32,214 bases of DNA, taken from Candidatus Rokuibacteriota bacterium. GTDB taxonomy: Bacteria; Bacteroidota; Bacteroidia; Flavobacteriales; Flavobacteriaceae. Within the stretch, counting starts at the first letter, position 1, and each line of letters opens with the position of its first letter. Under the pieces are notes generated by a model. The model did not search any database. It had not been told where the DNA came from and worked only from the letters and a program-made list of their open reading frames with translations. A program made the translations under genes and the position numbers. Positions 2,701 through 16,215 of the stretch are shown piece after piece. The DNA lies in the NCBI GenBank assembly GCA_900299425.1, contig OMJU01000059.1, positions 1 to 32,214 on the forward strand, in the 5' to 3' direction.

Positions 2701-3186
2701 ATGAAACGTATATTTTTCACCCTGCTTAGCCTCGGAATTTTATTTGCTTCTTGCGAAGGACCCGAAGGCCCTCCCGGAATTCCAGGAGTCAGTATTTTAG
2801 GAAAAGTTATTGAGGTAAGTGTTGACCTAGATCAAAGCAATGGTTATCAACAAGTGGTAACCTTGCCATTGGATATAGAAGTATTTGAGAGCGATGCTAT
2901 TTTGGTATATCGCCATGAAGGTATTTTTGATACCGCCGATATTTGGACACCATTGCCTACTACCTACTTTGACGCTGGCGGTGGCACATTTTTATATACC
3001 TTCAATCATACGTACTTCGATGTAAAGTTTTTTCTCGACGGCAATTTTAACCTCAACACTTTAGGGACTGAATGGACACAAAATCAGCTCTTTAGAATTG
3101 CTATTGTGCCCGCTGAATACGGCGATGCTTCCTTGAGTATGGAGGATATAGAACAGTCAGGAGATTTTGAATTTTTAGGCAACTAA
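2701..3186 (+). CDS. Small lipoprotein with a collagen-like Gly-Pro motif
   Basis: A 161-residue exported protein. A basic start, hydrophobic stretch and lipobox LFASC predict lipidation of Cys18. Directly after the Cys comes a short G-x-x run (GPEGPPGIPG, about residues 20-29), as found at the mature N-terminus of several Bacteroidota lipoproteins; it is too short to form a collagen triple helix. The remaining roughly 130 residues are rich in aromatic and acidic residues with alternating hydrophobic positions, which suggests a beta fold. I do not recognise the domain. It lies 16 bases upstream of a lipoprotein MsrB, so the two are probably co-transcribed and act in the same envelope compartment. 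Function is unknown; whether it is a substrate or partner of MsrB is speculation. Confidence 0.75.
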   Translation: MKRIFFTLLSLGILFASCEGPEGPPGIPGVSILGKVIEVSVDLDQSNGYQQVVTLPLDIEVFESDAILVYRHEGIFDTADIWTPLPTTYFDAGGGTFLYTFNHTYFDVKFFLDGNFNLNTLGTEWTQNQLFRIAIVPAEYGDASLSMEDIEQSGDFEFLGN

Positions 3187-3202: not shown

Positions 3203-3688
3203 ATGCGTAGCGCTTTTATTTTACCGGTATTATTTACCCTTTTGCTGAGTTCCTGTGGTTCCAAAGCCCAGAAACAAGATGAAGTTTTTCCCATTGAAAA
3301 ACCAGATTCAGTTTGGCAAAAACAGTTAGGCCCTATGGCTTATCGCGTCTTGAGACAAGCCGCAACTGAACCACCAAATAGCAGCAAACTCAACAAAGAA
3401 TATCGCTCAGGCACTTTTCACTGCGGTGGATGTGGAGCGCCACTTTTTGAATCTACCGCCAAATTTGAAAGCGGATCAGGTTGGCCTTCTTTCGACCGTC
3501 CTATTCAAAAGGCTGTCGCTTACAGCACGGATTATGACTTAGGTTATACACGTACAGAAGAACATTGCGCCAATTGCGGAGGGCACTTAGGGCATGTGTT
3601 TCCTGATGGTCCAAGAGAGACCACAGGTATGCGTCATTGCATCAATGGTGTCGCCTTGAAATTCATCCCCTCTGAGACTAAAAACTAA
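3203..3688 (+). CDS. msrB: Peptide-methionine (R)-S-oxide reductase, lipoprotein form
   Basis: MsrB reduces methionine-R-sulfoxide in proteins. This 161-residue copy has a signal peptide and lipobox (LLSSC, Cys18), so it should act in the envelope as a lipoprotein. The SelR/MsrB domain spans about residues 36-156. Visible features are two zinc CxxC pairs (Cys74/Cys77 and Cys122/Cys125), the GWPSF motif, HLGHVF, and the catalytic Cys146 in RHCIN. In many MsrB enzymes the residue before GWPSF is the resolving Cys; here the stretch reads SGSGWPSF, with Ser92 in its place. No other Cys remains in the mature domain, so a single-Cys recycling mechanism is implied. It lies 16 bases after a lipoprotein gene and about 140 bases before a second msrB. 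Confidence 0.93.
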   Translation: MRSAFILPVLFTLLLSSCGSKAQKQDEVFPIEKPDSVWQKQLGPMAYRVLRQAATEPPNSSKLNKEYRSGTFHCGGCGAPLFESTAKFESGSGWPSFDRPIQKAVAYSTDYDLGYTRTEEHCANCGGHLGHVFPDGPRETTGMRHCINGVALKFIPSETKN

Positions 3689-3691
3689 CTT

Positions 3692-3720
3692 ATTCCTATT
3701 TTGACGCCCATAATAGGAAT
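3692..3720 (+). terminator. Hairpin after the lipoprotein msrB gene
   Basis: A perfect 9-bp inverted repeat (3692-3700 with 3712-3720) with an 11-base loop begins 3 bases after the msrB stop codon. No T-run follows it, so it may be a weak terminator or an mRNA-stabilising 3' structure rather than a classical intrinsic terminator. Confidence 0.4.
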
Positions 3721-3826
3721 CCAAGGTAGAGACATCACGATATTCATTATTAGGGTAGAAAGTTTTAGGGTTCTTAGCATAAAGGAAATAGAAAAAATTT
3801 GAGTAAACTTTTTAAATTACTATTTG

Positions 3827-4225
3827 ATGAATAAAACAGATCAACAATGGTTAGATGAATTAGGCCCTGAACGTTATCGAATCTTGCGACTCAAAGGCAC
3901 TGAGCGGCCATTTAGCGGCGAGCTCAATAAGGAATACCGCCCTGGAATTTATCGCTGCGCAGGCTGCAACGCACATCTTTTCGAGAGTGATGCGAAATTT
4001 GATAGCGGCTGCGGATGGCCCTCTTTTGATCGCAGTGTTCCTGAGTCTGTGGCCTATGAGCGAGACACCAGTCATGGCATGATTCGCACAGAAATAATGT
4101 GTGAAGCTTGCGGGGGTCATTTAGGTCATGTCTTTCCTGATGGCCCGACCCAGACTGGACAGCGCTACTGTGTAAATTCACTCTCCATAACATTTGATGA
4201 AAAATCTGAAGAAAACCCGGTTTAA
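3827..4225 (+). CDS. msrB: Peptide-methionine (R)-S-oxide reductase, cytoplasmic form
   Basis: A 132-residue MsrB without a signal peptide, so cytoplasmic. It repairs methionine-R-sulfoxide using thioredoxin. Visible residues are zinc ligands Cys44/Cys47 and Cys92/Cys95, the resolving Cys62 in SGCGWPSF, and the catalytic Cys115 in RYCVN. Unlike its neighbour it carries the full disulfide-recycling set. The ATG at 3827 was chosen; a TTG directly before it (3824) would add one residue. The two MsrB domains align over their full length and are clearly paralogous, but they have diverged a good deal. The gene ends inside a strong terminator hairpin that overlaps its last codons. Confidence 0.93.
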   Translation: MNKTDQQWLDELGPERYRILRLKGTERPFSGELNKEYRPGIYRCAGCNAHLFESDAKFDSGCGWPSFDRSVPESVAYERDTSHGMIRTEIMCEACGGHLGHVFPDGPTQTGQRYCVNSLSITFDEKSEENPV

Positions 4226-4282: not shown

Positions 4283-5659
4283 ATGAAATCTTTTGACGTA
4301 ATAGTATTAGGCAGTGGCCCAGGAGGATATGTAACGGCGATTAGAGCGTCTCAACTCGGTTTAAAAACCGCAGTAATAGAAAAGGAAAACCTTGGCGGAG
4401 TATGTCTGAATTGGGGTTGTATTCCCACTAAAGCTTTACTTAAAAGTGCCCAAGTTTTTGATTATATAAAACATGCTGCTGATTACGGTATCACCGTCAG
4501 TGATTTTGATAAAGATTTCTCAAAAGTGGTTCAGCGCAGTCGTTCTGTAGCTGATGGGATGAGTAAAGGTGTTCAATTTTTGATGAAAAAAAATAAAATC
4601 GAAGTCATCGAGGGTTATGGTACTTTAAAGCCAGGTAAAAAAGTCGATGTCGATGGTACCCTTTACAGCGCAGAGCACATTATTATTGCCACAGGTGCCC
4701 GCTCGCGTGCATTGCCTAACCTCCCTCAAGATGGTAAAAAAGTAATCGGTTACCGCGAGGCAATGACCCTTGCAGAGCAACCTAAGTCCATGATTGTTGT
4801 GGGAAGTGGCGCAATCGGGGTTGAATTCTCGAACTTTTACAACAGCATGGGCACAGAGGTAACTATCGTAGAGTATTTGCCCAACCTTGTGCCTTTAGAA
4901 GATGAAGAGGTGTCAAAACAATTTGAGAAAATTTTCAAGAAAAATGGCATCAATGTCATGACCAATGCGGCACTCGAGAGTGTAGACACTTCTGGTGAAG
5001 GTGTAAAAGCTAGTGTGAAAACAAAAGACGGTGTGAAAGAATTACACGCCGATATTGTACTCTCAGCAGTGGGAATCGCAGCAAACATTGAAAACATTGG
5101 CCTTGAAGAAGTCGGGATTGTTACCGATAAAGGAAAAATTATGGTAGATGAGTTCTACCGCACTAACATACCTGGATATTACGCCATAGGAGATGTTGTC
5201 CCTGGTCCAGCATTGGCGCACGTTGCCTCGGCTGAGGGCATTACTTGTGTCGAGAAAATTGCTGGCATGCATGCAGAGCCGATTGATTATGGAAACATCC
5301 CAGGGTGTACCTATACTTCTCCAGAAATAGCAAGTGTAGGGCTCACCGAAGCACAAGCCAAAGAACAGGGTTATGAGATTAAAGTCGGTAAATTCCCTTT
5401 TTCAGCCAGTGGTAAGGCCAGTGCCTCAGGAGCCAAAGACGGTTTTGTAAAGGTTATTTTTGATGCCAAATACGGCGAATGGCTCGGATGTCATATGATT
5501 GGTGCTGGGGTTACGGATATGATTGCAGAGGCAGTTGTGGCGAGAAAACTCGAAACCACAGGACACGAAGTTCTAAAAGCAATCCACCCACACCCTACCA
5601 TGAGTGAGGCTGTAATGGAGGCAGTAGCTGCCGCTTATGACGAGGTGATTCACCTTTAG
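4283..5659 (+). CDS. lpd: Dihydrolipoyl dehydrogenase (E3)
   Basis: A FAD-dependent disulfide oxidoreductase that reoxidises dihydrolipoamide in 2-oxoacid dehydrogenase complexes and the glycine cleavage system, passing electrons to NAD+. The 458-residue protein starts with the FAD-binding GSGPGGY motif (residues 10-16). The redox-active CxxxxC lies in GGVCLNWGCIPTK. A second GxGxxG NAD-binding motif (GSGAIGVEFS) lies mid-protein, the FAD motif YAIGDV follows, and the dimerisation domain ends with the catalytic HPHPTMSEA stretch (His-Glu pair). Length is normal. It stands alone between a terminator-promoter junction upstream and a convergent terminator downstream, so it is a single-gene unit not linked to E1 or E2 genes. 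Confidence 0.95.
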   Translation: MKSFDVIVLGSGPGGYVTAIRASQLGLKTAVIEKENLGGVCLNWGCIPTKALLKSAQVFDYIKHAADYGITVSDFDKDFSKVVQRSRSVADGMSKGVQFLMKKNKIEVIEGYGTLKPGKKVDVDGTLYSAEHIIIATGARSRALPNLPQDGKKVIGYREAMTLAEQPKSMIVVGSGAIGVEFSNFYNSMGTEVTIVEYLPNLVPLEDEEVSKQFEKIFKKNGINVMTNAALESVDTSGEGVKASVKTKDGVKELHADIVLSAVGIAANIENIGLEEVGIVTDKGKIMVDEFYRTNIPGYYAIGDVVPGPALAHVASAEGITCVEKIAGMHAEPIDYGNIPGCTYTSPEIASVGLTEAQAKEQGYEIKVGKFPFSASGKASASGAKDGFVKVIFDAKYGEWLGCHMIGAGVTDMIAEAVVARKLETTGHEVLKAIHPHPTMSEAVMEAVAAAYDEVIHL

Positions 5660-13796: not shown

Positions 13797-15197
13797 TTAT
13801 TTGGTTTTAACAATTTGGGCCATGAGTTCTGCCTCTGTAACCATGCGATCATTCGCATAAGCTTTTCCAGCCATATGAACTATCCCGCGTCGAATTGGGG
13901 TAATAAGATCAAGTGTAAATACAAGTGTATCGCCTGGGTTGACTTGATGTTTGAACTTTACGTTATCGATCTTCATAAAGAAAGTCAAATAATTTTCAGG
14001 ATCCGGCACAGTACTCAAGGCCAAAATACCTCCGGTTTGGGCCATGGCTTCCACAATCAAAACCCCTGGCATTACCGGTGCACCAGGAAAATGGCCGACG
14101 AAGAACGGCTCATTCATGGTGACATTTTTCAGTCCTACTACGCGATCGGAACTCAGTTCCAATATTTTGTCCACCAATAAAAACGGAGGGCGATGCGGCA
14201 ACATAGCCATGATTTGGTTCACCTCCTTTACAGGGGTTTTATGAACATCAAATTTTGGCACAGCGTGTCTCTTGCGATCCTTAATGATTTTACTGAGTTT
14301 TTTAGCAAACTGAGTGTTTACGTAATGTCCTGGTTTGTTGGCGATTACCTTTCCTCGAATACGGGTGCCGATCAGGGCTAAATCCCCTAAAACATCGAGT
14401 AATTTATGACGTGCTGCCTCATTTGGATGATGCAAGGTCAAATTATCTAGAATTCCATTTGGTTTAACAGATATCTTGTCCTTTTTAAAGGCTGCCCGTA
14501 ATTTATCCATGGTGCCTTCGGATAATTCCTTATCGACATAGACTATTGCATTATTCAAATCCCCGCCTTTAATAAGACCATGTTCAAGCAACATTTCTAT
14601 TTCATGAAGGAAACTAAAGGTTCTGGAGTTAGCAATCTCATCTTTAAAATCACTCAGAGTATTTAAAGTGGCGTTTTGAGTGCCCAAAATTTTAGTCCCA
14701 AAATCAACCATGGTGGTCACTTGATATTCCTTTGCAGGAAGTATGGTAAGTTCGCTTCCCGTTTCTTCATCCAAAAAAGAAATCACCTCATCTACCACAA
14801 ATTCCTCACGATCAGTATTTTGGATTACAATTCCCGCTTTTTCAATCGCCTCTACAAAGAACTTAGAAGAACCATCCATGATGGGGGGTTCAGGAGCATC
14901 TAACTCCAAAATACAGTTGTCAACCTCCATTCCCACCAAAGCGGCCAATACGTGTTCTGAGGTTTGAATTTTGACGCCCGCTTTCTCAAGGTTAGTGCCG
15001 CGCTGGGTATTGACGACATAATTCGCGTCAGCCTCAATTACTGGGGCATCTTCTAAATCTATTCGGATAAATTTATAGCCGAAGTTCTCGGGAGCAGGTT
15101 TTAGGGTAAGCGTAACGTTTTTTCCTGTATGTAAGCCAACGCCTGTTAGAGAAACTTCTGAGGCGATGGTTGTTTGTTTGCCATTACTGTTTGCCAT
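13797..15197 (-). CDS. lpxC/fabZ: Bifunctional LpxC deacetylase / FabZ dehydratase
   Basis: A natural fusion found in Bacteroidota. The LpxC part (about 1-310) is the zinc deacetylase of the committed step of lipid A synthesis, with zinc ligands His82, His264 and Asp268 ([10 protein letters not shown]) and catalytic His291 in NKPGHYV. The FabZ part (about 320-466) is the 3-hydroxyacyl-ACP dehydratase, with His335 in LPHRPPF, GHFPG and Glu383 in [12 protein letters not shown]. The two activities compete for 3-hydroxyacyl-ACP flux, so fusion fixes their ratio. The ATG at 15197 gives 466 residues, the usual length; an in-frame extension to 15317 would lie inside lpxD and has no domain content. 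The start overlaps the lpxD end by 14 bases. An ATG at 15200 directly before it is also possible. Confidence 0.95.
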
Positions 15198-16215
15198 CAT
15201 TGACTTGTTTTTCCAAAGCGTCAAACGCCCGGACAATTTTGGGTAAATTTTTGAAATGAACGTAGCTCTTACTGTATTCTCCATAATTAAAGGCAGGAGA
15301 ACCTTGAAGTACCTCATTGTCCTTAATGGAGCGCCCTATGCCACTTTGGGCTTGAATCTTTACATTATTCCCGATAGTGATATGTCCCACAATACCGACC
15401 TGGCCCCCAATCATACAATTTTCGCCAATTTTAGTCGAACCGGCAATGCCAGTTTGGGCAGCAATCACAGTATTTTTTCCGATTTCAACATTGTGCGCAA
15501 TTTGAATTTGATTGTCCAATTTCACTCCGCTGCGAATGATGGTTGACCCGAGTGTGGCACGATCAATTGTTGTGCCTGCACCGACATCTACGTTAGATTC
15601 AATAATCACGTTTCCAATCTGTGGTACCTTATCGTAGGTGCCTTGTTCGTTTGGTGAAAATCCAAAGCCATCAGCGCCGATGATAGCGCCACTGTGAATT
15701 ACAGTCGATGATCCTATTTGAGTTTCAGAATAAATCTTTGCCCCAGAGAAGATCACTACATTATCCTGGATATTGACGTTATCCCCAATGTATGCATTGG
15801 GATAAATTTTTACGTTATTGCCTATCACCGCGTTGTCGCCAATATAAGCAAAGGCGCCTATGTAACAATTCTCTCCATATCGGGCAGAATCTGAGATATA
15901 CACCGGTTGCTCCACACCCTGCTTATTCATTTTTACTTGGTTATAATAGGACAATAGCGTTGAAAAAGCACTATAGGCATCTTCTACTCTGATCAAAGTG
16001 GATTGAATACTTTGCTCCGCTTTAAAGTCCTGACTTACAATAACAATTGAAGCCTGGGTTGTGTAAATGAAATTGGTATACTTGGGATTTGCTAAAAACG
16101 TCAGACTGCCCTGGGTGCCCTCTTCTATCTTTGATAGACTAGAAACCGCTACATCTCCGTCACCATCGACTGTGCCGCTGAGTATTTCTGCAATTTGGTT
16201 GGCTGTAAATTCCAT
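15184..16215 (-). CDS. lpxD: UDP-3-O-acylglucosamine N-acyltransferase
   Basis: Adds the second 3-hydroxyacyl chain, at the 2-amino group, in lipid A synthesis. The 343-residue protein has the uridine-binding N-terminal domain ([12 protein letters not shown]), a long hexapeptide beta helix (about 105-310), and catalytic His241 in [19 protein letters not shown] and [12 protein letters not shown] are both typical of LpxD. The ATG at 16215 was chosen because it matches the usual LpxD start; an in-frame TTG at 16236 would fall within the promoter. It is the first gene of the lpxD-lpxC/fabZ-lpxA-efp operon. Confidence 0.95.

Follow-up and report, generated by a model that had tools for sequence, protein, structure and literature searches.

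An exported and a cytosolic MsrB encoded side by side, probably the two-gene form of a task that a single dual-start gene may perform in other Bacteroidia

PilB of Neisseria occurs in a periplasmic and a cytosolic form, expression in E. coli having shown that the cytosolic one starts at an internal AUG (PMC6210582); the dual form is also cited in PMC2907840. The latter source describes internal starts in HBP35 of Porphyromonas gingivalis, at M115 and M135 in an insertion mutant and at M135 in E. coli as well. Human MsrB2 and MsrB3 are described as MsrBs of the Ser/Thr type, lacking the resolving Cys as does one of the enzymes considered here (PMC7475093). Start sites of F. johnsoniae are reported to favour A at positions -3, -6, -12 and -13, to be poor in U at -3 and to be little structured (PMC6847099).

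The window, which is the whole 32,214-nucleotide stretch of DNA that was analysed, contains two msrB genes running in the same direction, 138 bases apart. They are the only SelR matches found in the window's genome, the assembly being 83% complete. Profile matches and direct reading confirmed both open reading frames where an earlier note on this DNA had placed them, and the features of the locus are as follows.

3203-3688, forward strand: exported MsrB (P0001, 161 residues; copy 1), a predicted lipoprotein of the 1-Cys type, from profile matches, structure alignment and direct reading
3203-3256, forward strand: signal peptide of copy 1 with lipobox LSSC (L15-S16-S17-C18), from direct reading, by motif
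3254-3256, forward strand: codon of Cys18 of copy 1, the residue predicted to be lipidated, from the lipobox motif
3257-3334, forward strand: linker of copy 1, from Cys18 to Met45, free of in-frame ATG, GTG or TTG, from direct reading
3476-3478, forward strand: Ser92 of copy 1, aligned with the resolving position, which is Cys63 in Neisseria MsrB (PMC6210582), from alignment
3638-3640, forward strand: catalytic Cys146 of copy 1, from alignment and direct reading
3689-3826, forward strand: intergenic spacer of 138 bases, from direct reading
3827-4225, forward strand: cytosolic MsrB (P0002, 132 residues; copy 2) of the 2-Cys type, from profile matches, alignment and direct reading
4010-4012, forward strand: resolving Cys62 of copy 2, from alignment and direct reading
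4169-4171, forward strand: catalytic Cys115 of copy 2, from alignment and direct reading

Both copies exceed the curated cut-offs of TIGR00357 (MsrB) and PF01641 (SelR), contain the catalytic Cys in RxCxN together with two zinc-binding CxxC pairs, and share 70 identical residues over 131 aligned positions. Their identification as MsrB from profiles and motifs is sound; they are enzymes of known kinds, and reduction of methionine-R-sulfoxide is their predicted activity. The cysteines of copy 1 (residues 18, 74, 77, 122, 125 and 146) are lipobox Cys18, four zinc ligands and catalytic Cys146, with no other free Cys, as in a 1-Cys MsrB, and those of copy 2 are residues 44, 47, 62, 92, 95 and 115. 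The resolving Cys of 2-Cys MsrBs, located in SGCGWP, is present in copy 2 only. In an alignment to the solved MsrBs 3cez, 2k8d and 6sym, the last of which we take to be E. coli MsrB, Ser92 of copy 1 is the residue between the glycines of SGxGWP, a place occupied by Cys in 3cez and 6sym and by Thr in 2k8d. Both CxxC pairs of copy 1 and its RxCxN Cys are matched in the alignment as well. By direct reading under a heuristic rule, copy 1 has the signal peptide of a bacterial lipoprotein, ending in the lipobox Cys. The best start for copy 2 is the ATG at 3827, and direct reading found no signal peptide in it. The earlier note had described copy 1 as a lipoprotein with Ser92 opposite Cys62 of copy 2 and with all its other cysteines engaged in zinc binding, lipidation or catalysis, and copy 2 as a standard cytosolic enzyme. 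These assignments hold, as does its claim that copy 1 cannot form an internal disulfide, there being no spare cysteine in the protein and no conserved alternative core Cys in its relatives; the unusual envelope reductant that it suggested found no support, as described below.

Just upstream of copy 1, positions 2701-3186 hold a lipoprotein-like open reading frame with a collagen-like GPEGPPGIPG stretch, for which Pfam and NCBIfam gave no match at E 0.001. Immediately downstream of copy 2, positions 4283-5659 encode a pyridine nucleotide-disulphide oxidoreductase by profile match, presumably a dihydrolipoyl-dehydrogenase-like product. A long open reading frame at 13797-15317, judged by eye, presumably resembles an LpxC-FabZ fusion.

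Scanning genomes with copy 1 yielded 80 loci, from Flavobacteriaceae where titles name a family; such a scan reveals a cytosolic copy only within about 4 kb of the exported one. These loci and the two window loci together contain 134 distinct SelR proteins. In the adjacent pairs, Ser or Thr occupies the resolving place in 79 of 82 exported proteins, and Cys in all 52 non-exported ones. The three exported exceptions with Cys are L060 and two weak signal calls, one of which (L023) resembled an upstream-frame artefact. Because the same partition recurs in these loci, the Ser/Cys split of the window is not due to chance. The exported protein of L060 (4001-4462) lies inside the Ser/Thr clade yet has Cys at the resolving place, perhaps through reversal. 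An alternative resolving Cys in the core of the exported copies was considered and rejected, none being conserved among 77 of them; a single additional Cys, at +9, is seen in L006 and in L011, and L060 has the resolving Cys itself. The lipobox Cys is an unlikely resolver, since the signal peptide of L056 lacks a lipobox Cys altogether.

A wider sample, of the class, comprised 119 genomes, 108 of which gave matches; with a contig-end fragment (G084) left out, 106 genomes and the window were parsed. In an order sample, 72 of 89 genomes matched, and 68 new ones were parsed. Signal peptides were called by a rule of our own, refined in the course of the analysis. Export is the rule in the class: counting proteins with the same core once, 111 MsrBs are exported (76 with Cys, 35 with Ser/Thr) and 32 cytosolic (23 with Cys, 9 with Ser/Thr). 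These counts include an odd SelR protein, L225, which is absent from the trees and from the Cys counts behind the start-context and complementarity analyses. With Cys kept in such fractions of exported and cytosolic proteins class-wide, export was rejected as a general explanation for the missing Cys.

Compartment alone does not set the resolving residue; copy number predicts more. Counted once per genome, Cys is present in 63 of 72 exported single copies, and Ser/Thr in 24 of 30 exported copies that stand beside a cytosolic one. The near-complete split is limited to adjacent Flavobacteriaceae pairs. Where the cytosolic copy of that family is unlinked, in the family test described below, the cytosolic partners comprised 3 with Cys and 7 with Ser/Thr, and Cys is therefore no requirement of the cytosol. 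A need of Cys for cytosolic work was rejected on this count and on the internal Met carried by 8 of the 9 exported Ser/Thr proteins that are single copies in the class. That the resolving residue tracks gene arrangement better than compartment is something one window cannot reveal.

In copy 2, a sulfenic acid at Cys115 would be converted to a Cys115-Cys62 disulfide and then reduced by thioredoxin. The sulfenic acid at Cys146 of copy 1 would instead be reduced directly by a thiol or a thioredoxin-like protein on the envelope side, a step probably fed through DsbD. The earlier note had suggested that recycling of the exported Ser/Thr copy may call for an unusual reductant in the envelope, a view that draws on the lack of any Cys in copy 1 able to resolve the sulfenic acid. 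DsbD_TM matches were found, however, in all 21 genomes checked, the window's own and those of 20 relatives of either arrangement, so electrons can reach the envelope and no unusual reductant is required; in addition, Ser/Thr MsrBs are known elsewhere (PMC7475093) and occur in the cytosol of the same family. Dependence on a special reductant is thus quite improbable. Nor does the presence of DsbD separate the two-gene from the single-gene arrangement in these 21 genomes, and a missing DsbD route was rejected as the reason for the Ser form.

Single-copy exported MsrBs usually carry Cys together with an internal Met just before the domain. Such a Met, lying in the linker that joins the signal to the domain, was found in 69 of 72 proteins of the class and 23 of 25 of the order sample, giving 92 of 97, where 23.5 of 97 would be expected from control lipoproteins of the same loci (Met within 30 residues after the lipid Cys in 31 of 128). 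Among exported copies with a cytosolic partner it is present in 19 of 61, and families with a Met majority number 43 of 46 for single-copy proteins versus 7 of 23 for those with a cytosolic partner; MsrA-MsrB fusions are included in these counts, with the linker taken as the part preceding their first domain. Of 79 exported Ser/Thr copies from the Flavobacteriaceae loci, 1 has a linker Met. The linker of copy 1 in the window has no start codon before Met45, in contrast to most single-copy relatives, and copy 1 does not show the PilB-like arrangement in which an internal start lets one gene give two products. Linker sequence and length vary widely among relatives, yet the Met recurs. In most genomes with a single Cys-type MsrB it lies in the range where cytosolic copies begin, the commonest Met-to-domain distance being 15 residues for internal Mets, and 15 and 8 for cytosolic ATGs.

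The surroundings of 102 internal ATGs were compared with those of 2131 linker codons of the same genes. A is more frequent at -6 (0.66 versus 0.41), -13 (0.62 versus 0.34) and -3 (0.54 versus 0.43), U is rarer at -3 (0.04 versus 0.17), and folding is weaker around the internal ATGs; no enrichment of A is seen there at -12 or -2 (p 0.22 each). In their sequence context, the internal ATGs resemble Bacteroidota start sites, in line with the F. johnsoniae determinants. We infer that translation in single-copy relatives can also begin at the internal Met. One gene of a single-copy genome would then give a long envelope lipoprotein and a short cytosolic enzyme, and the window would give the same two products from two genes.

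The good start context would also suit single-copy genomes that use the internal start only, leaving the in-frame signal peptide upstream untranslated and the protein purely cytosolic. Against this, the sequence ahead of the internal Met looks like a signal peptide in 72 of 73 single-copy genomes of the class and 25 of 33 of the order sample, and a lax lipobox rule is satisfied by 94 of the 111 exported class proteins, a property that an untranslated stretch would not be expected to keep. Exclusive use of the internal start is highly improbable.

The pattern of copy number, resolving residue and internal Met was tested in the window's own family through a prediction set beforehand. A family sample of 139 genomes contained 11 with one match, and 20 genomes were fetched, comprising 10 new single-copy ones and 10 two-copy ones taken at steps. 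The single-copy MsrB is exported and has both Cys and an internal Met in 10 of 10, and the exported copy of the two-copy genomes has Ser/Thr in 10 of 10. Some linker Met occurs in 4 of the latter 10 exported copies, in three of them close to the lipid Cys.

Complementarity was assessed in 136 genomes that have either a single-copy MsrB with Cys or one Cys-type MsrB together with an exported Ser/Thr copy. Judged by sequence, the Cys-type MsrB looks dual-start in 94 of 107 genomes where it stands alone, the exceptions being nine without a signal and four with a signal but no Met, and in 2 of 29 where an exported Ser/Thr copy accompanies it. Independent pairs drawn on the best tree with our own script, branch support being ignored, ran as predicted in a mean of 12.3 of 16 and opposite in 0 (median p 0.0005). 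On supported branches, complementarity could be scored in 5 pairs, 3.8 as predicted (median p 0.125). Earlier supported-branch tests of a less clean design gave median p values of 0.45 (partner versus Met), 0.25 (partner versus Cys), 0.25 (Met versus Cys) and 1 (export versus Cys), and further ones 0.25, 0.0625 and 0.125; none of these tests, all of low power, reached a median p under 0.05.

The family tree has 89 rows, and a single clade with SH-aLRT 97 gathers 29 of its 33 exported Ser/Thr proteins; this clade counts 30 rows, L060 with its Cys among them. The exported Ser/Thr protein of G309 joins that clade at 90, and those of G162, G194 and G198 lie elsewhere on long branches. Among 17 putative dual-start Cys proteins, 6 mix with cytosolic Cys proteins, 6 are grouped nearby and 5 (G220 and four outgroup rows) are elsewhere; the putative dual-start protein of G291 stands beside the cytosolic protein of G309 at support 99. 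The two copies of the window belong to separate lineages, the exported Ser/Thr one and the Cys one. A separate clade with support 99 unites 15 cytosolic Ser/Thr MsrBs (L344, L346, L348 and 12 further loci), whose N-terminus is like KGNPxPDRRVEKT.

The pair might also consist of ordinary paralogues, that is, of exported 1-Cys and cytosolic 2-Cys lineages inherited together, with no dual-start gene elsewhere and with the internal Met retained in the linker through common ancestry or for some other function. The concentration of the family's exported Ser/Thr proteins mostly in one clade, the non-significant supported-branch tests and the linker Met seen in exported copies of two-copy genomes outside the class agree with such a history. 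It accounts poorly for a Met that recurs while the linkers around it differ widely in sequence and length, for the start-like nucleotide context and weak folding at the internal ATGs, and for the Cys-type proteins with an exported Ser/Thr partner, 26 of 29 of which lack signal and Met together. Simple co-inheritance of paralogues is therefore unlikely, and there is a good likelihood that the pair represents the two-gene version of a system by which Bacteroidia share methionine-R-sulfoxide repair between compartments. By analogy with Neisseria PilB, the two genes probably do a job that is often done by one dual-start gene.

Outside the class, the phylum sample covered best-scoring matches only (24 proteins, 23 of them outside the class) and few of the partners in two-copy genomes. 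Fifteen single-copy proteins comprise 9 exported ones, 7 with a linker Met, and 6 cytosolic ones. In two-copy genomes, a linker Met is present in 5 of 5 exported copies read among these best-scoring matches, and also in G362, a two-copy genome that is the one member of the sample inside the class. The exported Ser/Thr proteins L412, L414, L420, L421 and L423, from two-copy genomes outside the class, keep the linker Met, against the in-class rule. As this small phylum sample does not fit, the dual-start claim is limited to the class Bacteroidia, and the broader reading given below is rated slightly less probable on its account.

MsrA was examined in the 20 genomes of the family test (loci L363-L392). 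In seven genomes with one MsrB and one MsrA, among them G220 with its MsrA-MsrB fusion, MsrA is exported by the rule and has a linker Met in 6 of 7; G290 gave no MsrA match. Nine of the ten two-MsrB genomes have two MsrA types, cytosolic and exported, set apart from each other, although the cytosolic-type MsrA of G243 was called exported by the rule. A linker Met is present in 4 of 9 exported MsrAs of two-MsrB genomes, and the MsrA pattern is therefore weaker. For the class as a whole, we lean slightly towards the view that a genome's only MsrB, and sometimes its only MsrA too, exists in two forms through alternative starts, one an envelope lipoprotein and the other cytosolic, that lineages switch between this state and two dedicated genes, and that an enzyme confined to the envelope tends to lose its resolving Cys.

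If so, many Bacteroidia would guard both compartments against methionine oxidation with one gene and two starts, the start-site annotation of many msrB genes would conceal a second product, and the number of msrB genes per genome would go with the cysteine chemistry of the enzyme. No report of a dual-start MsrB in Bacteroidota was found in the part of the open full-text literature that was consulted, a body that mostly leaves out subscription journals. The alternation of one dual-start gene with two dedicated genes would be a new and testable variant of the PilB principle.

The proposed MsrB of Bacteroidia and the Neisseria PilB (PilBAB) system are alike in that one Msr system would serve both periplasm and cytosol (PMC6210582). 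They differ in that PilB is described as a fusion of thioredoxin-like, MsrA and MsrB parts with 2-Cys domains (PMC6210582), whereas the Bacteroidia mostly have a lone MsrB, and in that PilB relies on two starts and the window on two genes. HBP35 resembles the proposed system as a redox protein of the Bacteroidota envelope whose internal starts give forms without a signal peptide, but belongs to another family, being a hemin-binding protein with a thioredoxin motif (PMC2907840). Human MsrB3, like copy 1, is directed into the secretory route; an N-terminal CX5C pair is proposed to act as its resolver (PMC7475093), whereas the N-terminus of copy 1 contains the lipobox Cys only. Copy 2 shares its zinc-binding, catalytic and resolving cysteines with the 2-Cys MsrB 6sym, with no notable difference in the aligned part.
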